Program-made: the position numbers and the translations under genes | The notes under the pieces: model-generated | The model's input: the letters and a program-made list of their open reading frames with translations, nothing else | Told to the model about the DNA's origin: nothing | Databases searched by the model: none | In this document: positions 3,047 through 59,309 of the stretch, piece by piece | Position numbering within the stretch: the stretch's first letter is position 1 | Layout of the letters: every line of letters starts with the position of its first letter | IMG/VR virus record: IMGVR_UViG_3300009183_000083 | Location: 1-64,000 of that record | Direction: 5' to 3' (one strand) | DNA from: a virus | DNA length: 64,000 bases

Positions 3047-3060
3047 AAGTTTTAGTTTTT

Positions 3061-3538: not shown

Positions 3539-3552
3539 CGAGTGTTTTCATA

Positions 3553-4124: not shown

Positions 4125-4127
4125 TGT

Positions 4128-4142
4128 TTTAGTCAGGCTAAA
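4128..4142 (-). repeat. dispersed 15-bp near-palindrome TTTAGCCTGACTAAA
   Basis: An exact copy of the main form of the motif, reading in the direction of the 3948-4124 gene and ending 3 nt before its ATG. Confidence 0.75.
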
Positions 4143-4159
4143 AGTGCCGTGGTACTTTA

Positions 4160-4330
4160 TTACGCCCCACGGCGGGCGTACCAGTCACATGAGTTGCCTA
4201 CATAGTAGTTGACTGAAACACCTATGTAACCAGACGGTTTTTGCTGCCGCCAACCAGACCGTTTTACCTTGTAACGGTCAAAGGAAACTTTTACACATTT
4301 ACGGTGATTAGAGCAGACTGCTGTTTTGGG
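4160..4330 (-). other. candidate -1 frameshift site and 54-codon extension of the 4291-4770 gene
   Basis: On the minus strand, the frame of the upstream gene contains C CCA AAA (positions 4330-4324), a classic X XXY YYZ slippery heptamer, ten codons before its stop. In the -1 frame the sequence is open for 54 codons to a TAA at 4160-4162, with a basic, cysteine-containing product including SFDRYKVKRSGWRQQKPS and GYIGVSVNYYVGNSCDWYA. That frame contains no ATG, GTG or TTG, so it cannot start on its own. A fused product would be about 203 residues. No strong downstream RNA structure is evident by eye, so this is a hypothesis. Confidence 0.35.
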
Positions 4331-4770
4331 TTTATAATGGTGGTCAGGAGCGAGTCTAGAGCTTTTTCTGCATCCTCGTTACCAATAAGCGGGTTGGGCG
4401 CTTTAAGGCTATCTACAATGAGTTTTCTTGTATCGTTGTAAGCAAAACTTGTAGATTGGACTTTTGCTAGTTTTGCTTGAATTACTTTGATTGCTGGTGA
4501 CGTAATACCAAAATTGACTTTTGCTTCGGAGCTTGGATTCCAACGATGGTAAATAGTAATGTCATCTTCATTTAAAACTACTTTCTTGAAATCTTTCATA
4601 ACCAAAGCAATTCCTTCTTTCTCAAGCGCGTATCGCTTTGCTTCTTTTTTGATTTCTTCATCTTCATGCGCTCTTATAGCTTGGTGCATTAACGCTTCTA
4701 TAATTTGCGTTTTTGTAGGCTTAGGTTGAATTGCTTGGATTTTATTTGGAATAGTAATTGCAGTGTTCAT
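4291..4770 (-). CDS. hypothetical protein, 159 aa
   Basis: A mostly helical protein: a Pro/Lys-rich N-terminus, a long charged helix around residues 28-60 and a VMKDFKKVVLNEDDITIYHRW strand region in the middle. No domain is recognised. The leader is A/C-rich (CAACTAAAACAAC before ATG). The last ten codons follow a C CCA AAA heptamer that could direct a -1 frameshift into a longer C-terminus (see the neighbouring entry). The plus-strand frame 4241-4441 is a shadow. Confidence 0.7.
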   Translation of the reverse strand: MNTAITIPNKIQAIQPKPTKTQIIEALMHQAIRAHEDEEIKKEAKRYALEKEGIALVMKDFKKVVLNEDDITIYHRWNPSSEAKVNFGITSPAIKVIQAKLAKVQSTSFAYNDTRKLIVDSLKAPNPLIGNEDAEKALDSLLTTIINPKQQSALITVNV

Positions 4771-38788: not shown

Positions 38789-39445
38789 ATGTCAAAACTG
38801 ATTACCTTTGCAGAAGCTATTGTTCGGTTTGGTCCGCTTGTTACGACAGGGATTGAGATTGAGGATGCAATCCAAGAAGCAGTTGATCGCATTTTTGAAA
38901 TGGGTCGTTGGCCTGGAACTACACGAGAAGTAGAGCTTTTGCAGGCAGATTTTGTTGAAGATGCTGATTCTTTGGAATGGTATTACTTTTTTGACGAGAC
39001 TATTTATGATGGTGCAATTGGCTTTAGAAACATTACGCGCGGCTGGGCAATTGTTGATCAAACTTCTCTTTATAAAGATGGCATTAATATGGGGGATAGG
39101 GAGTGGGTTGATCTTGGAACAATCACAGTGGATGGTGTGGACTTTAGAAAGTATCGCGCCCCTCTAGGGTTTGTTCCATCCACTGGTCCTTATTACGCCC
39201 TGATGAAGCTTGAAGCTCCTAGCCTAAGCATGGACGACTTGATTCCAGTTCAAAGCGTAGCAGCACTTAAATGCGCGATTTTGGCTGTCTCCTCAGAATA
39301 TGCGGGAGACACGGAGAAAGCAACGAATCAATGGCAGTTATTTGATCAATTTATTAAACTTGGTGAACGTCAAGTTTCTGGTCCAAAACGATATTCAATT
39401 GGAATGGATTCTAGCTTAAGGCGTAAACCTCGTCAATTTAACTAA
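38789..39445 (+). CDS. head-tail connector/adaptor-like protein, 218 aa
   Basis: A helix-rich protein with SKLITFAEAIVRFG at the start, EIEDAIQEAVDRIFEMGRW and a C-terminal DTEKATNQWQLFDQFIKLGE helix. The size and the pattern of two helical parts around a beta region resemble podovirus adaptor/tubular-type proteins. It precedes the internal proteins. Function inferred from size and context. Confidence 0.5.
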   Translation: MSKLITFAEAIVRFGPLVTTGIEIEDAIQEAVDRIFEMGRWPGTTREVELLQADFVEDADSLEWYYFFDETIYDGAIGFRNITRGWAIVDQTSLYKDGINMGDREWVDLGTITVDGVDFRKYRAPLGFVPSTGPYYALMKLEAPSLSMDDLIPVQSVAALKCAILAVSSEYAGDTEKATNQWQLFDQFIKLGERQVSGPKRYSIGMDSSLRRKPRQFN

Positions 39446-41550: not shown

Positions 41551-42969
41551 ATGCCAAACTACCAATCTTACACAAACGATAGCGACACTCAGTTTGCCAA
41601 TCAACTTGACAACTATAAATTAGGGACAAGTCGTAGTGGTGGCAGTGATTATGATGAAGCTGTTGGAGCATTCAATACATTGCCTGAGAGCATGGCGGTT
41701 GGACAGATAATGCAAATGCGTCAAGCGGCACAAAACAATAGTTTAAACACGCGCCGTGCAGTGGCTGAAGACAATGTGAAAACAACTGAAGCTAATGAAT
41801 TTGCAGCATTTAATGATAGTTATCAAAACCTAAACCTTGATCCAACTGATTACGAAGGAAATGCAAAAGCATTGGCTAAACTTCAAATACAAAATCCTAA
41901 TAATAAATTAATTAAAGATGCGGCTGATAGCATTCGTGATGCATCACAGAAAATTTTAACTGGTCGCAAACAAAAAAATGATAGTCTGGATATGGATTAT
42001 GATGAGGCAACTCGTGAAATGCGCGAAGAAACTGATCGTTTAAATCGTCAAGCAAACCTTAAAAAAGCGCAAGTGTTGTATGAAACTGCATCTATGGCAG
42101 AAGACGAAATAAATCCAGGTAGTGTAATGTCTAAGGTAACAGGCACTTTGGCAGAAAAACATCCAGAATTAATGGGAGCTGCAGCTTCATGGAATTCTCG
42201 TTATGGGAATAATCCAGAACTGGCAGAGGAAACAAGAGGCATGGCTCGTTTATTAACTGGATTAGGCACGGCAGGTTATTTAGAAGACGCCAATAAATAC
42301 CCAATGGAAAATATTGGAAAAGGGCTTAATTCATTAGCTCCAAAAATTAATTTTGATTATAATCAAACACCTGAAGAAATTGCTGCGTCTTATCAAGCCG
42401 CTGCAAGCTTATATGAGGATTCAGATCCAAGAGATATTGCTCTTGAAAAACTTATTGCTCAACATAAAACTATTCATAACGCTCAAGTTACTCGCAAGGG
42501 TTTAGAAAAAAGTATTACCGAGCTTCTTAGCCAGCAACCTAATATTATGGATGCACAAGCAAAAGCTGACTTTAAAGCTAGAATTGCGGATGTACAAACA
42601 AGAGCTGGAGTTATTACGGGTCAAGTTGAGAAAGACTACAAAGACAGGAAATCACAAGAAGACGCAATTACCAAAGAGCAGACAGAAAGAAAGCTTGAAA
42701 TTCAAGAAGAGAGTCTTGGCATTAGAAGAGATACTGCTAATAGTACTATTGAAAGCAGAGAAGATAAAAGAATTCTTGACGCAAGAAAATTTAAAGAAAA
42801 ACAAAAACTTGCAGAAGAGAAAAATGGTCTTGATGTTTACACACAACTTTCTAAAGACGAAAAATTCAAAAAACTTCCTGCTGAAGAGCAATATAAACTA
42901 CTTAATGATCAAATAAAATTAAAGGCTTCATCTATTCCTAGTTGGAACAGCGCTAATGATAATGAATAA
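41551..42969 (+). CDS. coiled-coil internal virion protein candidate, 472 aa
   Basis: Mostly helical, with a charged coiled-coil region (about 310-440; ARIADVQTRAGVITGQVEKD and Lys/Glu-rich heptads) and a Gln/Asn-rich N-terminus (QIMQMRQAAQNNSLN). It sits between the 692-aa and giant proteins, like internal virion proteins in short-tailed phages. No sequence family recognised. Confidence 0.5.
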   Translation: MPNYQSYTNDSDTQFANQLDNYKLGTSRSGGSDYDEAVGAFNTLPESMAVGQIMQMRQAAQNNSLNTRRAVAEDNVKTTEANEFAAFNDSYQNLNLDPTDYEGNAKALAKLQIQNPNNKLIKDAADSIRDASQKILTGRKQKNDSLDMDYDEATREMREETDRLNRQANLKKAQVLYETASMAEDEINPGSVMSKVTGTLAEKHPELMGAAASWNSRYGNNPELAEETRGMARLLTGLGTAGYLEDANKYPMENIGKGLNSLAPKINFDYNQTPEEIAASYQAAASLYEDSDPRDIALEKLIAQHKTIHNAQVTRKGLEKSITELLSQQPNIMDAQAKADFKARIADVQTRAGVITGQVEKDYKDRKSQEDAITKEQTERKLEIQEESLGIRRDTANSTIESREDKRILDARKFKEKQKLAEEKNGLDVYTQLSKDEKFKKLPAEEQYKLLNDQIKLKASSIPSWNSANDNE

Positions 42970-42986
42970 TTTCAATTACTAAATTT

Positions 42987-45900
42987 ATGCTTATTGATAA
43001 ATCAAGTTATTCTTCGGATAACAAATTACCAGAAGAAGAAGAAGAAGTACATCCATTAGCCTCTGAACTTGGAAGGCATTATCTTTTATCAGAAGATTAC
43101 GTATATGGTGACGATAAAAAACTTGTAGCCAATCAGGCTTTTATGCACTGGGCTTCTGATCAAGAAGCTGAAAAAAAAGGAACAGTTAAAGCAACTGGTT
43201 ATGAAAAAAACGATGCTGGTGTTTTAGAAAAGGTTGAAAAAGATTTTCCTATGTTTAATGGGGAAAGTTTGACTTCTAAAGGACAAGAAGAATACGAGAA
43301 GGTTAAAAGGTATTTTGATGACGCTGCTTCTATGCCAAATGGAGGAGTGTCTCGTAATCCAACAACTCGCAAGTGGGAAGTGGATAGTCGCCTTGAGTCT
43401 GTTTTTACAGAAAAACAAGAAAAGCGTCCTGATCCATTTAAGGACATGTCGGAGTTTATTGATGAACAACTTAAAGTTACTAAGGAAGGTGATAGTCCCG
43501 CTTACACTTACGAAGACTTTACTAACTTTTCTAACGCTGTAGTAAAGAACGGCGAAGCTCACCTTGATCCAAATAACAAGGAAATGAAAGCTCGCTTTTT
43601 ACAAGAAGTGAATCGTCGTACATTTGATTCTTCTTTAATGGATGAAGCTGAAATTGGTCAGAAAGTAGCTGGAGCTTATGTAATCAACCCTAAAAATTAC
43701 AGTGAAGTAGACAAAGTTGAAAGTTGGATTGAGGGCTTAACAGATCTAAGTGCTTCTGATAAGAAGATGATGCTTATTGATTATCGTTCTAAAATTGAAG
43801 CAAATGTTGGTACTTTAGTTAATGATTTTGCCGCTGCTGATGCTGGAGTGATTGGCGGTATTTTTAGTTCTCCTCTTCGTGATGAGTTTAATGAATACAT
43901 GAGCAAGCCAGGAGCTAGTGGTTATCAATTTCTTAAAGAGAACAAAGAGCGAATGAGCAAAGACTCATATGGCGTTACGTCTGAAATTGCTACTAAATTT
44001 CGAGACTCAGTAATGGCTACCGGAACTGGTTTTTTATGGGCGGCGAGCGCTGGCAACTACACCAGCCCTGCGGAAGCGTGGGGTGGCTTGGCCGAGGATT
44101 CGTCCAAAGCATATTCAAATGGCAAGGCGTTCGAACTTTTTGGAGTCGACATCAACCGCCGTGATTTAACCGAGCTAACCGGACAGGTCGGGTCGTTTAT
44201 TGCAATGGGTGGAATGGGCGCTTTAGCAGGTAAAGGATTGACCGCAATTGGTGCTCAAGGAGCTTCACGTTATGCTGTTAATGAAGCCGGGATTTTGCTT
44301 TCTACTGTAGCTAAAACAGAAGCAGCCGCTGCTGCTGGCACTAGAACTTTTGGACAAAAAACTTTAGCCGGACTAAAAGCGGCTGGGACTGATCCAGAAA
44401 TGTATCTTGGATCGCTTCAAGCTGCTGGAACGTCTTTTGGAAAAACTTTTAATTCAACACTTGAAGAAACAGGAAGTCGTGAAGAAGCACTTAAGGCAGC
44501 AAACATTGCTGCAATATCAGATGGTTTTTCAGCTTTTATTGCAACAGGTGTGATGAACCGTTTTGCTCCAGGCATGGGCAAAGTGCTAGGAATGGGAGAT
44601 GGCGAAGTAGGTGGTGGTATTGTTCAAGCATTTAAAAATAAAGCTTTAGCTAAAGAGTCGATGGAGCAAGTCCAGACATTGCTTAACAACCTTGATGGAA
44701 AAATTGGAGAACCGCTTCGCAAGCAATTTGCTAATGACATTGGAAGTGTGATGGGTGCTTCTGCACGTTCTCTTGGTTTAAAAGGAATTGGTATTTTTGG
44801 AAATATGGGAGCTGAAGCAATTGAAGAAGCTTCAGATGAAATTATTTCTGATGTTATTAGTTCGATGCTTGATGATTCTAAAACTTGGAACGAAGAAGTT
44901 TGGCAAAACATTGGGACCAAGTGGAAAGAATATGTTAAGGCGGGGGTGCTTGGTGCAATTGGTGGAGCAATGGGTGATGCTACATCAACAGTACTTAGTC
45001 CAAAAGAAACATTTGGAACTAGCGAGGGACTTAAACTTCAAACTCAAGAATGGGACAGAATTAAAACTAATGTAAAAAAGTTTGACTCTATGGAGAATTT
45101 TGTTTTCCCAGCTCCTATTCAAGATGCAAAGAATCTTGCTGAGTATATTGCAATGCCTGATGACAAAGTTTCAATAGAACAAAAGTCAGATGCGTTGTTA
45201 GCGGCAGTTCGTAATAAGACTTTATTTACAAGCATGGTTAACGCCAATGTGCCTGTAGCCGATCCTAGTAGTGTTCCTGAGCCAAGTGTCACAGTTGACG
45301 CTGAAGGCGCACCTATAGCTAGCGACGCAGCAAAACAAGCCACTTCAGCTAGTGTGTTTGCTACAGTTATGTCAAACTCAGGTTTAGTTTTACCTGAGGG
45401 TCGTGTTTGGCGTGATGACATTTCATTTGCCCCAACTGAAGGAAGTTCTCCACTAAGTATATCTAATAATGTTAAAATCACACCATTGTCTACTGTAGCT
45501 GATGGAGACAGAACAGATCATGTTACTTATGTAGCGGCAAAAAAAGAAACAACAAATCCAAATGGATCAGTTACCACTGAGTATTTAAGCGCAAAAGAAG
45601 CTGCTGCTGAATTAGGAACAGCAATGTCTAGTCTCAGTTCAAAGAATAGAACTAAAGCAAATAATTTAGTTAACAACTTTCTCAGCAAATCAACTAATAC
45701 TAACTATAATGAACAATGGTCAACTGAAGTTCAAAAAGAACAAGGAGCTTCTTCTTCTGAACCTAATTTAACAACAGAATCTAAACTGTCATCAAGCATA
45801 GAAGGTGTACCACTAGATGTTGGGTCGGAAGTAAAATGGGAAAGCTCAAATGGTAATGGTCCGCGCAGTGGTAAAATTATATCTATTGACGCAGCAAGTG

Positions 45901-48900
45901 GTATGGCTGTTGTGCAAATGCCAGATGGAAAAGCTCGTGACGTTCCCGTTAAGGCCTTTAGTCAGGCTGAAACTCCAACTGTAGCGGAGGGCGCTCTTAT
46001 TTCCTCTCAAAACCAATCTCCTGGAATAAAAAAACAACAAACAATAATAAAAAATGAACAACAAGAAAATGATGCCAATGATGGGAGCAATGATGAAGCC
46101 ATCAGCAAAGCCGAAAGCGATGCCGAAAAAGATGGCGAAATCAATGCCGAAAAAGATGGCGAAGAAAAAGATGTGTTAAGTGAATCAGGAGCTGCTGGGG
46201 AAACATCTCCAGCAGCTTCTTCTAGTAGCGTTAATAATCGCATTAAAATCAGAAATCGGCTCAAAGGAGTTAAAAACACAGAGCCTCTTGTTAACAAAGA
46301 AAACGATCGCTTTTACAAATCAGACGGAGGAATTTATGTTTCTAAAGGAAAAGATCCCGTAACCTATGTTACCGACGATGAAATTGATGCTGAGATTGAA
46401 AGACAGGGTGGCAATCTAAATAATGCCCTTAAAGTGATCAACGATAAGATCACAAAAATGGGCGGTAATATTAACGCTTATGCTTTAGACATACAAGAGA
46501 AGACAGCGGAAAATGCCACTTCATTAACTTATCAAGACGTAACTTACGTTGCTGACCCTAGTCTTATTCAAGATGGAACTGATGCAATTGGCGGCAAGTG
46601 GATGATGATAACTAACGAGAAGACTGGTGTTGTGTCTTATACTTATCGTCCACCTACTGGAAGCGCGTTATCATTAGGAATTGGTGAAGTTGTAGCAATT
46701 GATGGAAAACCTGACGAATTCTTAGTAGTAAAACGAGTATTCAATGGTCGATGGGATTTTGAAAAAAAGGATGCTAAAGACGCAGCTGGAGACATTATCA
46801 ATGATAAAGGCTTAACTCAAGAAGGAAACAAATTTACTCGTTCTCGTTTATCTTTAATTTCCAAAGAATTTGAAAAACATTTTGAGTCAATTGTTAATGG
46901 AAAAATTAATCCAGAACAAATGGAGAAATTATTTCTTAAAGTATTGAAAATTGTTTCTCCTAAAAAAGATTTTGTTGTTGTCAATAAAGACATGTCTGAA
47001 GAAAAAGGTTATGTTTACGCAAGCCGAAACAATGAGAATCCAGATGATTTTGGTTCAATCAATGTAGACTATAAGAAGCTGTCTGAGCAACTTTCTCAAC
47101 TTTATCGTACAGCTAATACTAAAAATAAATTTTCTAATGCTCTTCTTGGAATGGATGCAGCAAGAGTTGTTTCTGCTATTATTGATGAAGAACTCACTCA
47201 CTTAATTGGATTTAAGATTTTTGACGATGCTGAACTTTTTTCGTTTTACAGATCTATTCTTGATCTTCCAAAAAACAAAGATGGTACTGAGCATCCATTC
47301 AAACAAATTCTTTTAGAAACTTTAACTGAGCGGTTTCCTCAAAGACAAGGTTTGCCTGCGTTAAGCCCCGAGATTGATGGGTTTGATGAAGGTACAGTAG
47401 GTGATGCTGATAACATGGATGAGATTGTCCTGACAGTGGCAACAGAAATGATTCGTAAGCTTCATCAGATGGCAACACGCGGAACTACCACAGAACGCGA
47501 TACAGAGCTTTCTAGACAGCTTCAGGCTGCGATTTATGGTGACGCTGCTGCTAAGTCCCAAGAAACTGCTGAATCAAAGGTGAAGGGGCCTTTAAACGTC
47601 ATTGGTCAAATAATTAGGCGTTACGCTGAACGTGTTCGCAATATCCTTTGGATGAAGTGGCAACAAGGGATGCTACCACGAAACACTCGTGATATGCTTA
47701 CAAGATTAAACAAAGCTTATCAAAACGAAGGGATTCAAGGTGATGTAGACTTTGGTTATGACGCTGCGATGGAAGAATCAGAGCGCCGAGTAGAACAGTA
47801 TGAGAAATCTTTTATTGATGAAACTAGCAAAATTGCAAGGATTTCTAATCCTGCAATGATGAAGCTTCGATCAATAAGCAGGGAGTTTGGTTACATGTCT
47901 CTTGGTGAATCCCTAGTAGTTGACAAAGACACAATGACGCTTTCTCTTCATCCAAAAATCATGCAACACATTAAGGATAATAACTTAATGGACTTGGATT
48001 TGGTAAATAAAGTTTTGTTTGAATTAAATGGTGAGGGTGTCAGCACTCCATCTTATCAAAAAGCAGTTACTGTAGCTTTTCTAAAGCAGCAAGTTATGGA
48101 TTTAAAGCGTGATAAACTTACGTTTAATCCTTCTGATTTGTTTGACTCAATGAAAAATGATGAGGGGTTATTTGGTAATCAAGCAAAAGATGCTAAGTCT
48201 GCAAAGCATTCTGTTTTATGGAGACAAATTCTTGAAGGCATTCCAGAAAACAACTTTGAAGCATCACTAAAAGAAGTTGTCTCACCATTAGTTTCTGAGC
48301 GAAACGAGATGTGGAAAGAACGTGATCGTTTGCATGGATTAGTTATTCAAGAAGCATTTAAGGCAGTTAACGCAATTGATACAGATTTGGGTGGGTTCTC
48401 TTCAATTAAAGCGTTAATTAAATGGGGTCGCTTGGCTCAAGTCAAACGACCTGGAAAAAGAGAATTAGTTGATATTTTTGATGATTTTACATTTCCTAGC
48501 GAGCAATGGTTTGAATATCAATCTCCTGCAGATAAGTTAATTAATGCAACTCCAGAAGAATCAGCGCAGGTGCGTCGTGATTTCAAGCAATCCATACTTC
48601 AATCGCTGGCTCTTTCTCTTCCTTCAATTACCGGAGAAAGTCATGTTAAATTTTTAGAGTCTATTGGTGGTCCTGTTTCAGAAGCTTTAGCCGAACTAAA
48701 GAGTACGGAAAAATCTTTAGAAACTATAACTCAATATATTGAAACAATTAAGTATTATAATAAATTCAATCACTTTATTCCAGGAATGGACCCTAAGGAT
48801 AGGGATCAGCTTAAGACTGCAATGTCTGCAGAACGTAACGCGCGAAGCCCGAAAAAAAGTGGGCTACCTATAAATGATGAAAATAATGTTCTTCAGCGTC

Positions 48901-51900
48901 AGCAACCGCTTTCACCTGAAGCGCAAGCTGCTTCGTTTTCTATTTATCAAGAATACATTGAGTTTTCTCGCGCTGTAGATGACTACAACAAATCTATTCA
49001 ATTTGTAAAGAACCGAGCATTGGGTGAGTTTGGTACACGTTCTGAGGAGTTTGGAATGAATTATGCAGACATGAATAAAGCAACTGGCAACAACGCTACG
49101 CTTGAGTTTAAAAGCATGACTGACGAACTTCAGCCTGCTAGTACGCCTAATGATGTATTTAGCGGAAATATGATTCCAGAAGGAATGAAATATGGTTACG
49201 GGTCAATAGCTCGTTTTGATGATAATGGAGAACCACTTTCAGAAGAAGAACAGGCATGGAACGCTGGACTAGAAGTTTATCGTTACACAATGCAATCAAA
49301 CGCTGATTTTGTTGGCAAAAATTTATTTTTAAACTACTGGGTTAATCTTCAACTTGGGAAAGTTGTTTTGTCTGGTGTTGCTAGTGACTACGAAAAAACA
49401 GGAGGATTCTTATTTAAAAGACAAGTTAACGAAATTGAAATGGTAGATTACGAAACTGCTGATCAAGCGTTTCCTGACTTACCAACTGAAGAGCTTGGAG
49501 AAGCAAAGATGAAACTTAAGTCTGGCGGCGCAGAAGACATTCTTAATGTTATGCGTTTTTTCCAAAAGGTTAACGTATGGGCAAGCGGAATTAAAAGCAA
49601 GTATCAAGGAGTTACGACAGATGAAGTTGGTGGAGAGCAAGGTTTTGCTGGTCGCATGATTCCAATGCTTAATGAATTATTTGGAAAGATGGAAAGCATG
49701 ATTGATCCAATTAGTGGAGAGTCATTTATTGGACTTACTGAAGGATTGGATTTTGATTTAAAAGCACACGTTGAAGACGTAATAAAGTTTTTAAGTCGTC
49801 ATTACGAGATGAAGGATTTTTACACAAGATCTGGTAGTTTTGTTATGCCTACAGAAGAAGTAAAAGACTTTATGGACTTCTTTAAAATGAAGGACGGCAA
49901 GTTAATTAAAATTTCATCACGTAAAGACAATCAAATTGCTAATGATTTTTCTGGTGTGCTTTTAAATTCAGGCAAAAAACTTAAGGTTTCATTACGCAGC
50001 GCTACCCAAGGTGTTAAATTAATGAAACGTTCTTTTAAAGCGTTTAGTAACCCTCGCTGGAAGCGTAACGTTGAACAAGAAGGTAGTCGTTATCAACGTG
50101 ATCCTGCATATGAACCAGACAATAAAGCTATTCTAAAGCTCGGAGAAATGACGGCAGATGCCCGAATGAGAAATCAGATGAAGTGGAATTTAAAATATTT
50201 TGAAACTAGCCGTAATTACATTTTTGGTTCTAATTGGGCATTTGAATTTTACAATGATATTCAACGAAGCAGTTATGGAGAAGGACGAGAGCCTTATGTA
50301 AAAATCAAAGCTTCAAGCATAAGTGCTAATAGAGATATAACATTAAATGAAATGTTTGATCCTAATCGGTGGACCCTTGAAAGACCTAAAGGATTTATTC
50401 CTAATCAACAAGATTACAACGATTCTTTATATTTTGGTGTCGGAAAAGAAACAAGAAGAGTAACAGATACTAATCTTTATTTAAATCCAGAAAGCGAAGT
50501 AATTAATCCAAACGAGTATTCCGGAAGCGAAGATGATCCTCGTGTTGCTAATTCTAGCATGTCTACTACAGACCCTACGGTTAGGGGGTACACTCAAACT
50601 TATAACGAAGGTCGTGCTTCAACACCACAGGAAACTGCTCAAAGGGCTTTTGGACGTTCTGCAGTTTCCCGGTCGATTAAAATAACTCAAGCGGCTATGT
50701 TCATAGGCAGCAATGGTCCAAGCGGACGTTCATCGTCAGACGCAGATCAATTTTATTTTGACATGATTCGTCTTGGAAGAGACAACGATTGGTTTACATC
50801 AGAAAACATTATTGAAGAACGCAATCGTTCAAGTAATAACGTGTTTTTTGCTGATTTGACAAATGATGAAATTGATAGCATGGATAATCGTCAGATTATG
50901 ACGGTTTTTCGTCAATCTATGACTGACAGTCTTGTTCGTCGTGGATTAAAAGGATTGTTTCCAGCTTTAGATTACACAAATGATGAAACTCATAACAAGA
51001 TTTACGATGCGTTTCTTGATGAATACGGAAACAAAACAGACAAAAACGGTAAGTATTTTTTTATTGATTCAGAAAAGTTTATTTTAGATTTGCTTGAGTT
51101 TAAGATGAAGTTTGAACGGGCAGTTGTAGAAGAAAACCGTGTTAAGAATCAAGATGACATTGCTATAGCTTACGATTTAATTTCTAAAGGAAATCAATTT
51201 GTATCTCCTAATGAGTCTGAGCGCATGGCTAAAGCCATCAAGGAGTCAATGACGAGTGAAAAATTTAATATTTTTGATACTCGTCTTGGTACTGGGCTTG
51301 GAACAGGAAATGCAATTGTGGATCATTTAATTGATACGCTTCCAGGCAGAACACTAATTGTTGAAATTCGTTCTGATGTTGCAGATGCAAACGATTTAAA
51401 GGGACTTAACATTCAAGTATTTAAAGGCAATCAAAAACAAGGTGAGGCAATCACTCCGAATGTTGTTTTTATGCCATTAAATCAAAATGGTCCATATCTT
51501 TCCAAAGACAAAGCAAGAAGTTTAATTAGCCAGTTACTCAGCATATCGGCTGAAAACAACTTAGTAGTTAAAAAAACGCTTCTTGATCTTTCTGCTAAGA
51601 TTGATGCTGAATTAAAGCCAGTTCAGTTGGCTGATGGTCTTGTAATTAGCTATCGTTCTAAACCAAAAAAGAAAACGTTTTTTCCTAAAAATCGTTACAT
51701 TTTTGATGCTTTTGACAAAATGGCGGCAATCCGATCTGATTTTGACATTGTTTCAAAAAGCTTATCTTTTCCTGGCGTTGATCCAAACTTGGTAGACGCA
51801 ATTATTATGGTTTCTGCATTTCTTACTAACGATGATGCTAAAACATTTCTTGATCAATCTTATAAAGGATTTGAAGTTCGCGTTTCAAGCAATTTGCCGC

Positions 51901-54900
51901 AGCAAATACAAGATGATCTACTTCATTCAATTTGGATGATTCGTCAAAGCAAACTTTATGAAACTAATCGTTTTGGAGATGAGACAGAAAACCTTGAATC
52001 AAACGATAATAACAACGAAGAAAATGAAATTGATGATGAGGAAGAGTTTCCTGATCCAGACAAAGATGTAGACAATTCTGACCCATCTCAAGAACTTGAT
52101 GATTCACTTGAAAAAAGTGAAGAAGCTAATAATTTTTTTGCTGACAATGTTATTCCTGAACTTGAAAAAAAGATAGCTGAGATTGAAGATGGCAAATTAG
52201 AAATTGAAATGGTAATTGCTTCTGCTGATTTTGGTGTAAACGATGCAAGCGATATACTGCTTTATAATGCTCTTGCTTCAATTGTTGAGGCTGGAATAAA
52301 ACGTGAAAGTTTGGAAGTTGTTAAAGGTCTTCAGGAAAGATATTCTAACAAGGGCCGCAAGGCTAGAAGCACTCGTGATATTCTGGCTAATCCTAAATTA
52401 GGTGGACAGTCAGGTAATCTTCGCGCTGATCTTGCTGCTCCAGTAGTTAAATCTAATGCAAAAGAGGATGAAGAGGTTGGGTTTTCACAAACAAAAATGA
52501 GTTTTGCTGTTAAAACTTATATTGGAGAAGCAATTAATATGGCTCGTCCAAACGTAAAAAATAGAACCGTTTTGAATTCTGAATTTGCTTCCACTAGGAT
52601 TAATAATATAAACGCTGCTTTAATTTACAGTTTAAGCAGTGTTGAAAATCAAGTTGAAGAACAACTTACTAGGTCTTTTAAATCAGCTCTTGGGGCTGTT
52701 GCAAAAATAAATTTTAGAAGCAATACAAAAAACGGAACTTTGGATTCTGTTAAGATTTCTAGCCAAAAAATTGAAGTTGTTGTTAATGATGAGCTTCTTT
52801 CTGAATTAGGAAGAAACTTGCCAGCAGCTGAATTAGAAGTTGCTTTGAGTCAGACTCGAAAAGCAGTTGAAGATTTATTTGTAAGCAAAGATAGATTTGA
52901 AACTATTTTAGCTTCTTTAAAAGAAGATCGCGCTAATGCAGTAGTTCTTAATTCAAAAAATGTTGCTGAATACTGGGCTAATACACCTACATCAATTCCT
53001 GATGCAACAGGAAAACGTAAAGGCAAAAAAGTTTCAAATGACGAGTTAAGCAACGCAATGAGCAAAGAGAATGTTGAATTAGCAAGAGCTAAGTCTGCAG
53101 CTCTTGTTGATAAGTTGCGTGTAATTGATCGCCAAATTAATCGCGTCCAAGATGATCTACTTGCAGTAAAACGTGAGATTTCTAAAATTGAAAATTATCG
53201 CGGTCAAACTGTTTTAGGTCGTTCACATTTTAAAGCTAATATTGGATTAGACATTCTTAAAAATGAAGAAGGCACACAGATTTCTGCTGCGGTAGAAGAG
53301 GCTACACGTAAAGTTGGATTTAATATTATTACTACTCCGTTTTTTGGCTCAATTGACGAACGTGCTCGCTGGATGGACACATCTTCTGATAACGCAATAG
53401 CTGATGTTGAAATCAAAGAACTTCGAAAAGAACATTACATTAAAGAACAGGCAATGATTTCTGCTTTAACGCAGTTAGCAACTGATCACATTGATGATGC
53501 TTATAAGATTTCTAGAAACACAGCGGATAATTTTATGGATTTTAATCCGCTTAAAGCAATTCGCCAAGCAATTGAGATTTCCAACGTTGAATCAATTGTT
53601 TTGAAAGATCAAATGAAGATGGCAAGAACTGAAGCTGAAAGTGCCATGATGAGAGGGTTGGAGGCTGACGATATTGCAATGTTGACTGACCCCGCTTCAA
53701 CTAATTTAATGGTGATGACGTTTGCTGATCAAGCAAAACTTACTCCACAAGAAAAAACAGGCAAAACAATTTTAACACCTAATCAATACACTAGATTACG
53801 TATTTTAAACATGCCTAAGAGCATGACAGAAAGAAGTAAGAAGATTGGAGCGCTATTTAGTCAGGAAGGCCAAAACGCAATCTTAATGCCTACTACAGTG
53901 AAGGAGCAGCTTATGAGGGCATTTCCTATGACTGTAACAAAAAGGAACGTAAACAGCACTATAACACAGATAGTAGCTGAAGCAGCGGCTTTGTCTCAGA
54001 ATGTCTCACTTGATTCAATGCGTCATTCCGAACTGGAAGCCAAGCATAACGATGGAACGATTACTCCTGAGGAGACAGAAACGGCTCAAAAACTTGTATA
54101 TGAGGCAGCTGATAAAAAGGGGTATGACCAAAAAGGACATAGAGCAGGAGTGTATAAAAATGGAATTCCACTCCTACCAAGCACAACTGGTGGTTTGGGG
54201 TCTGCTTATTATGCTATTTTGGGAGGTTCTCTCGAGGAAATTAAAGAGTTTGGTGGGGAGATTTTGGGCCCTGACCGAAACAACCCGTCGATTAAAACAA
54301 TAGCTGGTGAAGTGAGAATAAATCTTGGTGATAAACCTTTATTTGTTAAGCACCCCAGTGAGGTGTCAGAATGGGCTGATAAAAATAACCTTATTCCATC
54401 TTTTTATGCTTGGTTGAATTACCAACAAGCAGTCAATTCAGTTTATGATACCATCTATAAGGGTCAAAATAAAACAGATTGGAATGCGCCTACACGTCGT
54501 ATAGACGTTAATCCAAACAGTCTTGAAGCCAGAAGAGCAGGACGCTTATACATAGAAACTGCTGAAAGCAAAAAAGAATACCGAGATGCCCTAATTAAAG
54601 ATGGGTATTCAGAAAAGGACATTGACCGAATGAGGCTGAATGAAGACACGGTAGGAACTTCTGATGCTGCTAAGTTGAATTCTTTCTTGTTTGATCAAGG
54701 TCATGTTACTGCAATCGTAGCAGATTGGTCTGGAGCTGCAAAAAATAAGAGAGCTTCGGGTGATGGACGTATGTTCACCGAGGTTGCATTAGCAAATCCA
54801 GATCAAATCAAATCCGCAGAACCCTTCACTGGAGTTCCTTTGGATCAAAGGTTTAACCCACAAAGTCATAGCATTGCTTACGCTGCCAATCTTGATTCAC

Positions 54901-57900
54901 GCCCGATTTTAAACATCCGTTCTTCTGTTCGAAAAGCATTAGAGGATTCTGGTTTTTCGTTTAGCGATAATTTTGATGATGTTCAAGCTAGCAAGATTGC
55001 TCGCGTTGTTACAAAACGGTTGCGTGGAACTCGTGACACCAGCCCGGAATTTATTTTAGATGGTTCTGAAGCATTATCGTATTTAGTTTACGAACAACTT
55101 GGTCTTCCTGAGCGAGATCAAGCTGGCCGAGAATCAATTCAAAAAGCTATCGCTTCGTGGATGGAAACAGGTAAAGATCCAAAGAATATTGATAAGTCAC
55201 TTTGGCAGAAGGTGCTTGAAGTTATTGAACGCATTAGTTCGTTATGGAATGGATCTAAATTCCAATCTATTGAAAAAGCTCTTTCAAGCGAACTCAATCA
55301 AATCGAAATGGGGAACAAGAATTACTTCTTGTCTCCTGCTGTTGGTCGTTCAAAAATAAGTTTCCAAGGTATTGTCAATCGCAATCCAGACGCCGTTGGG
55401 GTGATGAACTACCTTCAAGATCAAGGAATTGATTTTATACTTACTGGAAGCTTTGCTTACGCCGATCAAGTGTCAATTTATCGTAGCGCCGATAAGCCTG
55501 TGCATGATGTTGATCTAATTTTAAAGAGCGGAACGGTTGATTTAGCTGCAGACAAACTAAAGAATCATTACACTACCGCTAATCTTTACGACTTTCATCC
55601 CCGTAAAGGCGAGGCATCCCGCATCAATGGAATTATTGTTGTTCCAAAATCTCAACAAATAACTAACCTCATAACTCGTTGGGTAAAAACGCGAAATGGC
55701 TTTGAACCATTACGTTCGTATGATGTTATCGACAACGTGACTGGTAATAAAGTAGGGTCTTATAAGTTTTCTCCATCTGGTGAAGTTTCAGATAATGCTG
55801 GAGTAATACTTGATTTAATTGAGCACAAACCCGGTGTTGAGCGAGAGTTTGTAAATCAATCATTTCAAGATGGGTCTGACAACAATCGCACCATCAAGGT
55901 AAGTAATTATGTTTCTGGATTTGTTCACAAGCTGGAGCTTCTTCGCTATAAGGATTTGCGAGACTTTAGAATGGCTCGTCCAGCGAACACTGAGGGTTCT
56001 GCTGTTTTGGATTCCACAACTCAATCGGTCAATAATCAGGGTCAAGGAATTGCTTATGCTGCAAACCTCAACCCAACAGATCATTCTTATTTCATGAACT
56101 CTATGGAGAGCTTGAAAAAAGAAACATTTTCTGGCGACGAGTTTAGCCTAACTAAAGGCAAAACAATGACTAAAGAAGAAGCGGCTAAAGCATTTTCAAC
56201 TGAGTTTGCTAATAAGGTTAAAGTGTTTCTTAATACAATTCGTAATAATGGAGATGTAAACGGAAAGAAAGTTTTTGATTCTAATGGCCCTCTTTATCAA
56301 GCACAAATTGAAGAATTTTCCTTCATGCTTGAAGGAATGGTAATGGCTTACAACGACTCAGCCGGGGTGTTAAAAAAGGAAACAAAAGATGCGGTAAGAA
56401 CTTTATTAAAAAGCATTAGTGAAAACAATGAAGGATCTTTTTCTTTTATTTCAGAAAGACAGTCATTTGGTATTGATATTAACACTGAAAACATGGTTAA
56501 CTTTAGGATTCCAAAAGTGTTTTCAAGTGTTTTTATGGATGTTGAAACCGATTTGATTGTTAAGCGTCTTACTTCATCTATGACTATTCATAATGGATGG
56601 GCATCATTGTTTACAATGAAGTATCTTGATCATCATGACTCTCGTATGCGCAATCGTTTTCAGAAAAACCGCGCTGGTCGACAAGCGGCACTTCATTTGA
56701 AAAACATTCTTGATCGAGGCGTGAGCGGCAAAAGCGGACGTTCAGCTTACGAAACGCGAAAAAAAGCAGCTCAAGAAGAAATTGCTCAAGCTGCAAAAAA
56801 ACTTGATAATAATGCTTTAGATCAAACTATTGGATATTTTCATGCAATGCTTGATGGTCTTGATAACGCTAATGGCATGACCTATGTTAACGCATTCAAC
56901 TCTTGGTTTAATCAAATAAAACGTGGTTTTGATCAATATAATGAGTTGGTAAAAGAAGTAGATAGTTATTACGATAAAAACGAAATTTCAAAATATTGGG
57001 ATGCTAATCACATTGATTTACGTCGTGACAAAGAATTAACTGATAAGATCAAAGAGATATTAAATAGTGCTAAAGCAACATCTGATTTCATTGATGAATC
57101 TAAAGCAAGAGAAGCGGTAGAGCGAATTCAAAAAGCGTTAATAGATAATGTTACTAAAGGTAAAGAAGCAGATGTGCTTAATTATTCTACAACTGTATCT
57201 AGAGTTTTAGGTGATATTGATAGTGCAATGCATTTAACAATGGCAATGCTTTCTCAGCCTTCTGATCCACGAATAGATTCTGAAAAAAACAAATGGAATA
57301 ATCGTGAAGTTAAAGGATATAAGCGAACCTATTCATCTGTTCCAATGATTATTGGATATGCTGGCAACCCTAAAAGCAAGGTTCCAATTAAACAAGGTGA
57401 ATACATTTCTGATGCTATGGATATTGTAGCGTTTGATAGGTCTTCATTTTTTGGCGGTGTCGGTCATTCCTCACAGCGCTTTGACGATAAAAGTGTATTT
57501 CGACCTATTTTTGTTAATGGAGTGATGGCTCCACAATCTTTAATTGATGATGCTATTTATCGTCTTAACGTAACTCCAACTTATGAAGTGCTTCGTCGTT
57601 CGCTTGGAAAGGTTAAAGACACATCTGGACAACTTGGTATTGAAGATAGCGGTATTCTTGAAATTGTTCAGTCTCAAGTTCCTGATATTAATTTGCCAAC
57701 TCAGGATTACAATGAACAGAAGCACAATCATGACATGGAAGTTGATGCGACAACTACAGCTTTGGCTTTTGTCGCAAACGAATTAGAAACTACAATACGA
57801 AATGACTATCAAACTGGTGTAGTAAATACTGGTGGTGCAGAAATATTGAGATTTTTAGGTTCAACGTTTATTGTAAGATCTTTAGCATCATTACAACAGA

Positions 57901-59309
57901 TTACTGACCAGTCGGTTGCTCCATCTATAGGTTACGTTTCTGGAAAGTTTGCTGTTGGTAAGTTTAAAATGGCTACAACTTATCTTAATTTAGTTCAACG
58001 CTATCTTACAGATTCAAAGTTTAAAAAAAGAGCTCGTGAATTTATTATGAAGACTGATCCTACAGTTTACTACCGTTCTCTTGATGGTCGCGAAGTGTAT
58101 CAAGATGTAACTAAAGGACAGGTTCGTTACAGCAAAAAAAACTCAGTTAAAAACAAATTAGGAAAAGGATTTAGAGCATATGAAAAGTATGGAGAAATTG
58201 CATTGCATAAAACTATTGGTTCAGTAGAGCGTGTGCTTGCAACGTCTGTATTCTTAACTGAACTAATGGATTACAATGGAGAAACTGACGTTGAAAAACT
58301 TTTTTCTGGAGAATCAAAGTTTACTTCAATGGACGTTACTAATTCTCGGATTAAAGTAAACGACATGTTTGGTCAATCTGATCAAGGCAACAAAGCTTGG
58401 ATGTTCCAATCTAGAGATAGCAGTCCAATTATGTCTGCTATTTTTAAATCGTTATCTGCTTTTTCTAATCACACTGCTAGTGTTGGAAGCAACATGTATG
58501 TTCTTGCGCCACAAGCACTTAACCCTTTGCTTAACAAAATAAGCCCTAAGAAAATTGACTTGCTTGATAAAGATATTCAACAAGAAGCATTGGAAAACGT
58601 AGTTACAACTTTGGTTCAAAACGTATTGTTTGCTCCGTTTAAAGCAAAGATGATTGTTCCAATGGTATGTTGGGTTATCGCACGTTTGATTTATCGTGAT
58701 GATGAAGATAAAGCTGTAAGACATGCCCAAGAAATGGCCAATTCAATTCTTGCTCCAACTGAAGATGGAAATATGGTCACCAATGCTATTAAATCAACGG
58801 TTTTTGGCAAGAAGCGTGAGTTTTTCCGTTCCGAGTTGGAACCTGACGCGGCATTCGCTTCAGGCATTGCTGAGATAGTTTCTAAAACGTTGCTTGAAGG
58901 TGTAACAGCGCTTCCTTTTGGAGTTGTTGCTAGTTATTCAGCAGCAAACACAAATGTTCAAAGATTCGTAACAAACGATGCTGCTGAATCAATTGTGGCT
59001 TGGGTTGCTAATCTTGAGAAATCTAAGTTTTATTTTGATGACAACGGAGTTATGGTCCGTCAATATGAAGCGAATGCATTGGAAAATGTTGCTGATACTA
59101 CCGCAGCAGGAAGCACTTTATATGATCTTGCCGCATCAGCAAAATTAATGGCTGAATATAACATGACTGACGAAGCTTCAAGTAATCGAATGAAAGCTGC
59201 AAGCAACACAGCGCTTTATTTTGCAACTGAGATTGCACCTTTTTTACGTGACGCTAGAGGTCAAATGCAAAGCGTGTTGAAAGAAACTATAAAAGCAGAG
59301 AAAGATTAA
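42987..59309 (+). CDS. giant polyvalent virion protein, 5440 aa
   Basis: A quarter of the window is one frame. Residues 1-340 are hydrophilic. About 340-680 is Ala/Gly-rich, possibly membrane-active (FIAMGGMGALAGKGLTAIG). Near 1012-1095 and 3000-3055 are acidic linkers. EELTHLIG (1401-1408) suggests a degenerate metallopeptidase-like patch. About 3705-3965 ends with QIKSAEPFTGVPLDQRFNPQ, the closing phrase of ADP-ribosyltransferase-like domains in polyvalent phage proteins. About 4150-4330 has TGSFAYAD and HDVDLIL (GS at 4154-4155, D4174, D4176), a nucleotidyltransferase pattern. A hydrophobic segment lies near 5210-5235. Such proteins are thought to be injected with the DNA to modify or protect it. 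The frame has no internal stops; activity of each domain is inferred. Confidence 0.8.
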   Translation: MLIDKSSYSSDNKLPEEEEEVHPLASELGRHYLLSEDYVYGDDKKLVANQAFMHWASDQEAEKKGTVKATGYEKNDAGVLEKVEKDFPMFNGESLTSKGQEEYEKVKRYFDDAASMPNGGVSRNPTTRKWEVDSRLESVFTEKQEKRPDPFKDMSEFIDEQLKVTKEGDSPAYTYEDFTNFSNAVVKNGEAHLDPNNKEMKARFLQEVNRRTFDSSLMDEAEIGQKVAGAYVINPKNYSEVDKVESWIEGLTDLSASDKKMMLIDYRSKIEANVGTLVNDFAAADAGVIGGIFSSPLRDEFNEYMSKPGASGYQFLKENKERMSKDSYGVTSEIATKFRDSVMATGTGFLWAASAGNYTSPAEAWGGLAEDSSKAYSNGKAFELFGVDINRRDLTELTGQVGSFIAMGGMGALAGKGLTAIGAQGASRYAVNEAGILLSTVAKTEAAAAAGTRTFGQKTLAGLKAAGTDPEMYLGSLQAAGTSFGKTFNSTLEETGSREEALKAANIAAISDGFSAFIATGVMNRFAPGMGKVLGMGDGEVGGGIVQAFKNKALAKESMEQVQTLLNNLDGKIGEPLRKQFANDIGSVMGASARSLGLKGIGIFGNMGAEAIEEASDEIISDVISSMLDDSKTWNEEVWQNIGTKWKEYVKAGVLGAIGGAMGDATSTVLSPKETFGTSEGLKLQTQEWDRIKTNVKKFDSMENFVFPAPIQDAKNLAEYIAMPDDKVSIEQKSDALLAAVRNKTLFTSMVNANVPVADPSSVPEPSVTVDAEGAPIASDAAKQATSASVFATVMSNSGLVLPEGRVWRDDISFAPTEGSSPLSISNNVKITPLSTVADGDRTDHVTYVAAKKETTNPNGSVTTEYLSAKEAAAELGTAMSSLSSKNRTKANNLVNNFLSKSTNTNYNEQWSTEVQKEQGASSSEPNLTTESKLSSSIEGVPLDVGSEVKWESSNGNGPRSGKIISIDAASGMAVVQMPDGKARDVPVKAFSQAETPTVAEGALISSQNQSPGIKKQQTIIKNEQQENDANDGSNDEAISKAESDAEKDGEINAEKDGEEKDVLSESGAAGETSPAASSSSVNNRIKIRNRLKGVKNTEPLVNKENDRFYKSDGGIYVSKGKDPVTYVTDDEIDAEIERQGGNLNNALKVINDKITKMGGNINAYALDIQEKTAENATSLTYQDVTYVADPSLIQDGTDAIGGKWMMITNEKTGVVSYTYRPPTGSALSLGIGEVVAIDGKPDEFLVVKRVFNGRWDFEKKDAKDAAGDIINDKGLTQEGNKFTRSRLSLISKEFEKHFESIVNGKINPEQMEKLFLKVLKIVSPKKDFVVVNKDMSEEKGYVYASRNNENPDDFGSINVDYKKLSEQLSQLYRTANTKNKFSNALLGMDAARVVSAIIDEELTHLIGFKIFDDAELFSFYRSILDLPKNKDGTEHPFKQILLETLTERFPQRQGLPALSPEIDGFDEGTVGDADNMDEIVLTVATEMIRKLHQMATRGTTTERDTELSRQLQAAIYGDAAAKSQETAESKVKGPLNVIGQIIRRYAERVRNILWMKWQQGMLPRNTRDMLTRLNKAYQNEGIQGDVDFGYDAAMEESERRVEQYEKSFIDETSKIARISNPAMMKLRSISREFGYMSLGESLVVDKDTMTLSLHPKIMQHIKDNNLMDLDLVNKVLFELNGEGVSTPSYQKAVTVAFLKQQVMDLKRDKLTFNPSDLFDSMKNDEGLFGNQAKDAKSAKHSVLWRQILEGIPENNFEASLKEVVSPLVSERNEMWKERDRLHGLVIQEAFKAVNAIDTDLGGFSSIKALIKWGRLAQVKRPGKRELVDIFDDFTFPSEQWFEYQSPADKLINATPEESAQVRRDFKQSILQSLALSLPSITGESHVKFLESIGGPVSEALAELKSTEKSLETITQYIETIKYYNKFNHFIPGMDPKDRDQLKTAMSAERNARSPKKSGLPINDENNVLQRQQPLSPEAQAASFSIYQEYIEFSRAVDDYNKSIQFVKNRALGEFGTRSEEFGMNYADMNKATGNNATLEFKSMTDELQPASTPNDVFSGNMIPEGMKYGYGSIARFDDNGEPLSEEEQAWNAGLEVYRYTMQSNADFVGKNLFLNYWVNLQLGKVVLSGVASDYEKTGGFLFKRQVNEIEMVDYETADQAFPDLPTEELGEAKMKLKSGGAEDILNVMRFFQKVNVWASGIKSKYQGVTTDEVGGEQGFAGRMIPMLNELFGKMESMIDPISGESFIGLTEGLDFDLKAHVEDVIKFLSRHYEMKDFYTRSGSFVMPTEEVKDFMDFFKMKDGKLIKISSRKDNQIANDFSGVLLNSGKKLKVSLRSATQGVKLMKRSFKAFSNPRWKRNVEQEGSRYQRDPAYEPDNKAILKLGEMTADARMRNQMKWNLKYFETSRNYIFGSNWAFEFYNDIQRSSYGEGREPYVKIKASSISANRDITLNEMFDPNRWTLERPKGFIPNQQDYNDSLYFGVGKETRRVTDTNLYLNPESEVINPNEYSGSEDDPRVANSSMSTTDPTVRGYTQTYNEGRASTPQETAQRAFGRSAVSRSIKITQAAMFIGSNGPSGRSSSDADQFYFDMIRLGRDNDWFTSENIIEERNRSSNNVFFADLTNDEIDSMDNRQIMTVFRQSMTDSLVRRGLKGLFPALDYTNDETHNKIYDAFLDEYGNKTDKNGKYFFIDSEKFILDLLEFKMKFERAVVEENRVKNQDDIAIAYDLISKGNQFVSPNESERMAKAIKESMTSEKFNIFDTRLGTGLGTGNAIVDHLIDTLPGRTLIVEIRSDVADANDLKGLNIQVFKGNQKQGEAITPNVVFMPLNQNGPYLSKDKARSLISQLLSISAENNLVVKKTLLDLSAKIDAELKPVQLADGLVISYRSKPKKKTFFPKNRYIFDAFDKMAAIRSDFDIVSKSLSFPGVDPNLVDAIIMVSAFLTNDDAKTFLDQSYKGFEVRVSSNLPQQIQDDLLHSIWMIRQSKLYETNRFGDETENLESNDNNNEENEIDDEEEFPDPDKDVDNSDPSQELDDSLEKSEEANNFFADNVIPELEKKIAEIEDGKLEIEMVIASADFGVNDASDILLYNALASIVEAGIKRESLEVVKGLQERYSNKGRKARSTRDILANPKLGGQSGNLRADLAAPVVKSNAKEDEEVGFSQTKMSFAVKTYIGEAINMARPNVKNRTVLNSEFASTRINNINAALIYSLSSVENQVEEQLTRSFKSALGAVAKINFRSNTKNGTLDSVKISSQKIEVVVNDELLSELGRNLPAAELEVALSQTRKAVEDLFVSKDRFETILASLKEDRANAVVLNSKNVAEYWANTPTSIPDATGKRKGKKVSNDELSNAMSKENVELARAKSAALVDKLRVIDRQINRVQDDLLAVKREISKIENYRGQTVLGRSHFKANIGLDILKNEEGTQISAAVEEATRKVGFNIITTPFFGSIDERARWMDTSSDNAIADVEIKELRKEHYIKEQAMISALTQLATDHIDDAYKISRNTADNFMDFNPLKAIRQAIEISNVESIVLKDQMKMARTEAESAMMRGLEADDIAMLTDPASTNLMVMTFADQAKLTPQEKTGKTILTPNQYTRLRILNMPKSMTERSKKIGALFSQEGQNAILMPTTVKEQLMRAFPMTVTKRNVNSTITQIVAEAAALSQNVSLDSMRHSELEAKHNDGTITPEETETAQKLVYEAADKKGYDQKGHRAGVYKNGIPLLPSTTGGLGSAYYAILGGSLEEIKEFGGEILGPDRNNPSIKTIAGEVRINLGDKPLFVKHPSEVSEWADKNNLIPSFYAWLNYQQAVNSVYDTIYKGQNKTDWNAPTRRIDVNPNSLEARRAGRLYIETAESKKEYRDALIKDGYSEKDIDRMRLNEDTVGTSDAAKLNSFLFDQGHVTAIVADWSGAAKNKRASGDGRMFTEVALANPDQIKSAEPFTGVPLDQRFNPQSHSIAYAANLDSRPILNIRSSVRKALEDSGFSFSDNFDDVQASKIARVVTKRLRGTRDTSPEFILDGSEALSYLVYEQLGLPERDQAGRESIQKAIASWMETGKDPKNIDKSLWQKVLEVIERISSLWNGSKFQSIEKALSSELNQIEMGNKNYFLSPAVGRSKISFQGIVNRNPDAVGVMNYLQDQGIDFILTGSFAYADQVSIYRSADKPVHDVDLILKSGTVDLAADKLKNHYTTANLYDFHPRKGEASRINGIIVVPKSQQITNLITRWVKTRNGFEPLRSYDVIDNVTGNKVGSYKFSPSGEVSDNAGVILDLIEHKPGVEREFVNQSFQDGSDNNRTIKVSNYVSGFVHKLELLRYKDLRDFRMARPANTEGSAVLDSTTQSVNNQGQGIAYAANLNPTDHSYFMNSMESLKKETFSGDEFSLTKGKTMTKEEAAKAFSTEFANKVKVFLNTIRNNGDVNGKKVFDSNGPLYQAQIEEFSFMLEGMVMAYNDSAGVLKKETKDAVRTLLKSISENNEGSFSFISERQSFGIDINTENMVNFRIPKVFSSVFMDVETDLIVKRLTSSMTIHNGWASLFTMKYLDHHDSRMRNRFQKNRAGRQAALHLKNILDRGVSGKSGRSAYETRKKAAQEEIAQAAKKLDNNALDQTIGYFHAMLDGLDNANGMTYVNAFNSWFNQIKRGFDQYNELVKEVDSYYDKNEISKYWDANHIDLRRDKELTDKIKEILNSAKATSDFIDESKAREAVERIQKALIDNVTKGKEADVLNYSTTVSRVLGDIDSAMHLTMAMLSQPSDPRIDSEKNKWNNREVKGYKRTYSSVPMIIGYAGNPKSKVPIKQGEYISDAMDIVAFDRSSFFGGVGHSSQRFDDKSVFRPIFVNGVMAPQSLIDDAIYRLNVTPTYEVLRRSLGKVKDTSGQLGIEDSGILEIVQSQVPDINLPTQDYNEQKHNHDMEVDATTTALAFVANELETTIRNDYQTGVVNTGGAEILRFLGSTFIVRSLASLQQITDQSVAPSIGYVSGKFAVGKFKMATTYLNLVQRYLTDSKFKKRAREFIMKTDPTVYYRSLDGREVYQDVTKGQVRYSKKNSVKNKLGKGFRAYEKYGEIALHKTIGSVERVLATSVFLTELMDYNGETDVEKLFSGESKFTSMDVTNSRIKVNDMFGQSDQGNKAWMFQSRDSSPIMSAIFKSLSAFSNHTASVGSNMYVLAPQALNPLLNKISPKKIDLLDKDIQQEALENVVTTLVQNVLFAPFKAKMIVPMVCWVIARLIYRDDEDKAVRHAQEMANSILAPTEDGNMVTNAIKSTVFGKKREFFRSELEPDAAFASGIAEIVSKTLLEGVTALPFGVVASYSAANTNVQRFVTNDAAESIVAWVANLEKSKFYFDDNGVMVRQYEANALENVADTTAAGSTLYDLAASAKLMAEYNMTDEASSNRMKAASNTALYFATEIAPFLRDARGQMQSVLKETIKAEKD
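44016..44215 (+). other. GC-rich patch inside the giant gene
   Basis: Base composition and third-position choice change abruptly to GC-rich codons (GGC, CGC, GCG, GTC, GAC) within a mostly AT-rich frame. Coding is uninterrupted, encoding residues about 344-410, including SAGNYTSPAEAWGGLAEDSS. A recombination tract is one explanation. Confidence 0.5.
44363..44377 (+). repeat. dispersed near-palindrome, variant TTTAGCCGGACTAAA
   Basis: A copy inside the giant gene, encoding part of LAGLK. Confidence 0.55.
45957..45971 (-). repeat. dispersed near-palindrome, variant TTTAGTCAGGCTGAA
   Basis: A copy inside the giant gene with one mismatch in the right arm. Confidence 0.5.
46119..46160 (+). repeat. 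tandem duplication in an acidic linker
   Basis: The string ATGCCGAAAAAGATGGCGAA occurs twice, almost head to tail, encoding repeated AEKDGE in the acidic linker of the giant protein. It looks like recent slippage or duplication. Confidence 0.55.
48686..48700 (+). repeat. dispersed near-palindrome, variant TTTAGCCGAACTAAA
   Basis: A copy inside the giant gene, encoding part of LAELK. Confidence 0.5.
56142..56156 (+). repeat. dispersed near-palindrome, variant TTTAGCCTAACTAAA
   Basis: A copy inside the giant gene, encoding FSLTK, the same peptide as the copy at 60586 in the HNH gene. Confidence 0.55.

Follow-up and report, generated by a model that had tools for sequence, protein, structure and literature searches.

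Introduction

The genes for gp14, gp15 and gp16 of phage T7 stand in this order with the largest last, and gp16 carries a transglycosylase. The virion RNA polymerase of phage N4, about 3,500 aa in length, is a giant injected protein encoded at the end of the virion genes. A third group of large phage proteins, the polyvalent proteins (Iyer et al., 2017; PMC5512222), combine several unrelated enzyme modules in a very long chain, among them ART-PolyVal (PF18760), share these modules with unrelated phage proteins, adjoin late virion genes and are thought to be packaged.

Here we describe a gene of 5,440 codons within a 64,000-nucleotide stretch of viral DNA (the window; positions 1 to 64,000 of IMG/VR record IMGVR_UViG_3300009183_000083, which has 69,809 bp). 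Its product resembles the polyvalent proteins in size, in its unrelated enzyme modules, in their occurrence in unrelated phage proteins and in its place beside late virion genes, but differs from them in that its N- and C-terminal parts match no searched family and that its ART core is divergent. The family to which it belongs and its nucleotidyltransferase module appear to be undescribed, the general idea being already known, as judged from a sample of the later literature.

The giant gene and its relatives

The gene forms one open frame with an ATG start and a single terminal stop, and makes up 23% of the virus record. An earlier note, made from the sequence alone, had pointed to this uninterrupted frame. 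Relatives of the phage were found via the terminase, which is 63–69% identical in about 20 viral contigs. Two of these terminase-matched contigs, G001 (73,925 bp) and G005 (73,295 bp), are long enough for the giant gene, and both carry a homologue at the same place in the genome, of 5,493 and 5,983 codons stop to stop, respectively. These frames come from other metagenomes and are uninterrupted too, which rules out both an artefact and an assembly-made fusion as the origin of the giant ORF. Part of another, G001-like copy lies on a 27-kb contig (L026); the family as treated here is based on three distinct sequences. The length, which the earlier note took for undescribed, is not unique, as PHROG 701 spans 6,136 profile positions.

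Single-sequence scans of the whole protein against Pfam and PHROGs gave no match, nor did a direct search of the viral contigs with it, and tblastn searches of 50,697 phage records and of plasmids gave no significant match, a result that reflects the collections searched. Common to the three homologues are the N-terminal ~1,000 residues, a middle region and the C-terminal ~1,050 residues; the inserted modules differ (Table 1). The polyvalent nature proposed for the protein is supported, in that chains of well over ~2,000 aa each combine at least two unrelated enzymatic domains (nucleotidyltransferase and ART-type in the window, exonuclease and hydrolase in G005).

Table 1. Coordinates of the giant gene, its parts and its upstream neighbors in the window.
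Feature	Coordinates	Strand	Remark
218-aa conserved protein, probable tail tube or adaptor	38789..39445	+	64% identity in both relatives; name from position
692-aa protein, T7 gp14-like internal protein position	39464..41542	+	from position; weak match in G001
472-aa protein, T7 gp15-like internal protein position	41551..42969	+	from position; 38% identity to G001 counterpart
Giant polyvalent protein gene, 5,440 aa	42987..59309	+	homologues of 5,493 / 5,983 codons in L023 / L050
N-terminal conserved domain, residues 1-998	42987..45980	+	27-31% identity to both homologues
Slot A, acidic low-complexity linker, residues ~1000-1090	45984..46256	+	relatives carry enzymes here
Conserved region with EExxH, residues 1290-1620	46854..47846	+	DEExxH in 3/3 homologues
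Conserved middle region, residues 1620-2900	47844..51686	+	22-27% aligned identity; no PDB profile match
Slot B, ~700-residue insertion, residues ~3672-4380	54000..56126	+	only a few tens of residues in G005
Module with ART-PolyVal flanks and divergent core	54000..54893	+	helical hairpin ...TAQKLVYEAADKKGY and tail NPDQIKSAEPFTGVPLDQRFNPQSHSIAYAANL
First IAYAANL	54873..54893	+	family-wide ART-PolyVal tail, I-x-Y/F after RFNP motif
Nucleotidyltransferase module, residues 3974-4346 (catalytic ~4065-4340)	54906..56024	+	motifs, homologues, model
Second IAYAANL	56049..56069	+	beyond nucleotidyltransferase, far edge of cassette
C-terminal conserved domain, residues 4381-5440	56127..59306	+	29-36% identity

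Gene neighborhood

The giant gene is the last of a plus-strand block with the order terminase, portal, scaffold, major capsid protein, fibres, 218-aa protein, 692-aa protein, 472-aa protein and giant, and a primase-helicase gene on the opposite strand adjoins this virion block. Gene order and strand are identical in G001 and G005, so that the late-virion-gene setting of the giant is conserved in three phages; the names portal, scaffold and capsid come from gene order and inspection. Identities to G001 and G005 are 66 and 68% for the terminase, 77 and 69% for the portal, 68 and 56% for the capsid protein and 79 and 66% for the primase-helicase, against ~30% for the giant, which therefore changes much more quickly than its putative carrier particle. 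The order fits the third of three genes after the tail genes, as in T7-type ejection, and no known ejection protein proved homologous; a homologue of the 472-aa neighbor was not detectable in G005. The particle would be that of a short-tailed podovirus, as suggested by gene order and the T7-like primase-helicase, which are the whole basis for this assignment.

This location beside the fibre genes, together with the resemblance of a hydrolase in the G005 giant to tail lysozymes (see below), would also suit a tail-tip, fibre or tape-measure protein that is not injected. We regard this as improbable, because no fibre or tape-measure family was matched and because enzymes of intracellular type (exonuclease, nucleotidyltransferase and ART flanks) suit a protein that gains access to the cytoplasm.

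As a separate observation, two tandem, paralogue-like fibre genes (26379–29819 and 29850–33260), SGNH-hydrolase-like by eye, are 30–38% identical to one G005 fibre.

Conserved backbone

The strongest block of the N-terminal domain reads GAEAIEE.SDE.ISDV...DDSKTW...W.NI...Y..AGVLGA.GG. The same domain contains, at residues ~400–660, the Ala/Gly-rich segment that had been described as membrane-active-looking. The segment is present, but no 19-residue window within it exceeds 1.5 on the Kyte-Doolittle scale, and it is thus not a plain transmembrane helix. Acidic linkers were found as described, at residues ~1010–1075 and ~3000–3060, and so was a late hydrophobic segment, which peaks at residues 5213–5231 within the C-terminal domain. 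In the middle region taken as a whole (1290 to ~2900) alignments show 20–27% identity, those at ~20% being approximate, and a short piece (3477–3668) aligns to G005 directly before the last insertion.

Profiles of the conserved regions matched nothing in the PDB or PHROGs, and for the N- and C-terminal domains no known ejection protein and no Pfam, PHROG or PDB family was matched. Neither were these two domains found in 18 other giant-protein records, in a search that had no positive control.

Two slots with exchanged modules

Slot A sits between the N-terminal domain and the middle region. The window's phage has mainly an acidic linker there; G001 and G005 have a PD-(D/E)XK exonuclease (PHROG 298, 1.9e-12 and 1.5e-13), and G005 has in addition a TIGR02594/tail-lysozyme cell-wall hydrolase (72.8 bits, with a cut-off of 70.55; PHROG 1259, 2.4e-21). 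No wall hydrolase was recognized in the window's own giant. A hydrolase and an exonuclease, as in the giants of these relatives, are typical of virion entry proteins. Slot B lies directly before the C-terminal domain and holds the ART-type and nucleotidyltransferase modules, which form a single insertion relative to G005; G001 is poorly alignable at this point. The same ART-nucleotidyltransferase cassette also occurs in unrelated giant phage proteins.

The nucleotidyltransferase-like block of the earlier note proved to be real, in its homologues, in its catalytic motifs and at the level of fold. The motifs are TGS (4153–4155, with GS at 4154–4155), HDVD (4173–4176, with DVD at 4174–4176), a third Asp (4276) and R..KD..D (4320–4326). 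Scanning for the pattern TGSxA...R...HDxD yielded 60 loci (L191–L250), most in long frames; five loci gave phmmer E-values of 1e-42 to 1e-46 and BLAST identities of 33–37% over residues ~3940–4346, and matches to the family below 1e-3 come from over 40 giant phage proteins, many of them longer than 1,500 aa. In an alignment of 22 sequences, TGS, R, H, both Asp residues of DxD and the last Asp are invariant (T89, G90, S91, D110 and D112 in alignment numbering), and the third Asp (D212), K and R-x-KD are nearly so. The GS, DxD and third carboxylate of Pol-beta enzymes are all present, as is, at low TM-scores, the fold. The core of the AlphaFold2 model has a pLDDT above 90, and its PDB matches in Foldseek were led by TM1012 and MenT3/TglT (2ewr at 2.4e-4, probability 1.00; MenT3, probability 0.98). 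Although the Foldseek probabilities for MenT3/TglT, MenT1 and TM1012, with which it shares GS, DxD and the third Asp, are 0.92–1.00, the TM-scores are only 0.26–0.46, which is due to an extra beta insertion; moreover, the module is embedded in a giant phage protein and is not part of a toxin-antitoxin pair. Pfam named no family in ten members, and PHROGs gave nothing significant for two copies. The 2017 survey assigned such nucleotidyltransferase domains only to conjugative elements (PMC5512222). In the window's own copy of the giant, this module is the sole enzyme that can be firmly assigned.

The ART-like block, whose QIKSAEPFTGVPLDQRFNPQ begins at residue 3940, presents a mixed picture. A degenerate scan for QIKSA(D/E)P found at least 120 viral loci, and in nine of ten tested Pfam called PF18760, ending at that motif. 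Among the three giants, a profile built from 55 bridging loci matches only the window's protein (3633–3969, 1.5e-20); with the selection motif and the tail removed the match was 1.6e-6, scored mostly by the upstream hairpin. The characteristic ART-PolyVal flanks are thus present, including the QIKSA...RFNP tail, but the core has GHRAGVY instead of HGT (the nearest core is that of L073, the only locus to share it), and PF18760 itself gave no match to the window's module at E<=10, its curated cut-off not being reached. The AlphaFold2 model reaches a mean pLDDT of 65, its core is poor, and the PDB offers no match to it at E<0.5. The earlier note had made a structural match its own test; the nucleotidyltransferase-like block passes it, and the ART-like block, though supported in its tail, fails at the fold level. 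By its flanks the module is thus at most a putative ADP-ribosyltransferase.

The earlier note had also seen a hint of duplicated linkers in the phrase IAYAANL, which begins at residues 3963 and 4355; no other 7-mer of the giant protein is repeated. Both copies exist, but the first is the standard ART-PolyVal tail and the second marks the other edge of the cassette. At the DNA level the copies show four differences over 21 bases, every one synonymous, and some repeated 7-mer occurred in 7 of 200 shuffles (3.5%); the repeat alone is therefore weak evidence. The pair may be the footprint of a recombination event.

The EExxH region and possible processing

A peptidase had been suggested on the basis of EELTH, at residues 1401–1405 (47187–47201). 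All three homologues keep DEExxH, and none has the HExxH of zincins; with no profile match in addition, the peptidase is not supported. A metal-binding role of the region is possible. Homology of residues 1290–1620 to the EExxH regions of other giant phage proteins, which look similar by eye, was considered and rejected (hhalign probability <1%). As an observation in its own right, EExxH occurs in the same frame as the nucleotidyltransferase or a neighboring one in L195, L214, L215, L218, L235 and L248, and lies close upstream of it in L218 and L248.

These features bear on whether the giant is a precursor that is cut into separate virion and effector proteins, the linkers and I-x-Y-A tails being cleavage sites and EExxH the protease. 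Two low-complexity acidic linkers and IAYAANL at both cassette edges would suit such processing, and polyvalent proteins have been predicted to be processed by their own zincins (PMC5512222). However, HExxH is missing from each of the three homologues, their EExxH region has no profile match to those of other proteins, neither G001 nor G005 contains IAYAANL, and N4 packages its virion RNA polymerase without cutting it (PMC5512222). We therefore consider cutting unlikely.

Proposed role of the giant protein

Its genome position, the sister phages' wall hydrolase and nuclease and the modules in common with other phage giants together point to a packaged and injected protein, and we think it probable that the giant is a polyvalent protein that is packaged in the virion, injected and equipped with swappable cargo. 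It would be produced together with the late virion proteins, enter a particle of short-tailed type and be released into the host at infection. Packaging and the crossing of membrane and envelope would fall to the conserved N-terminal, middle and C-terminal parts (~3,300 residues), as would assembly with the products of the two genes immediately upstream, in the manner of gp14, gp15 and gp16 of T7. The enzyme modules would be cargo in two slots, one after the N-terminal domain and one before the C-terminal domain. A host tRNA or protein may receive a nucleotide from the nucleotidyltransferase early in infection; for the ART-flanked module, modification of a host target and degeneration are both conceivable. 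We infer packaging and injection, these roles of the conserved parts and these targets, as well as the end by which the protein would be anchored in the particle and whether it would be cut.

The giant is like the T7 proteins in the three-gene order with the largest last, and like gp16 in that a relative's copy carries a wall hydrolase; unlike them, it has no sequence match, is four times longer and contains extra cytoplasmic enzyme modules. The N4 virion RNA polymerase offers a likeness in size class and place, as a very large last virion gene, and enzymes of this type may carry ART and lysozyme domains (PMC5512222); injection of the giant would complete the parallel. Yet a polymerase hidden in the middle region is highly improbable, since neither single sequences in Pfam and PHROGs nor a three-sequence profile against the PDB gave a polymerase match, though a very divergent domain may have escaped these searches. 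No HExxH peptidase was detected in the giant either.

Returning to the injected polyvalent protein with swappable cargo, we advance only tentatively the wider proposal of a new entry system, in which a giant ejected scaffold, undetected outside the clade in the collections searched, would have two cargo slots with different enzymes and would inject a MenT-like nucleotidyltransferase acting on host tRNA or protein.

Host and putative regulatory signals

The earlier note had taken this for a probable PVC phage. Nothing that was found supports a PVC host. Cellular genome collections queried with the giant's C-terminal domain and the terminase gave no match and hence no host lead. The GC content is 40% in this phage and ~57% in both relatives, so that their hosts may differ. 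A Shine-Dalgarno-like 4-mer preceded none of 25 window gene starts (15 on the plus and 10 on the minus strand), against 14% of random 17-mers, and 3 of 25 starts in G001 and G005; the leaders are A-rich. Such starts point to a host lineage, or a phage group, that initiates without Shine-Dalgarno sequences.

A 15-bp palindrome, TTTAGYC-N-GRCTAAA, has 32 matches on both strands with at most 2 mismatches, against 2.8 expected (0 of 100 shuffles), at window positions including 4128, 5720, 8268, 17148, 21228, 23172, 41533, 44363 and 60586. Clade loci (e.g., L006, L008, L016 and L017; some records overlap) contain 90 sites in 357 kb, and the palindrome is absent from 1.83 Mb of 196 other phage loci. 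It lies at most 60 bp upstream of an ORF start at 43 of the 90 sites, against 6% of random positions, and precedes the portal, capsid and 472-aa genes. A regulator site or a leader hairpin specific to the clade is the probable explanation.

Significance

Sister phages whose portal, terminase and capsid proteins are 56–77% identical carry the same giant backbone with different enzymes. This amounts to a natural experiment, in which a delivery role of the backbone and an effector role of the cargo can be tested apart. The nucleotidyltransferase family would be a widespread injected early effector, and whether phages inject MenT-like enzymes becomes a testable question.
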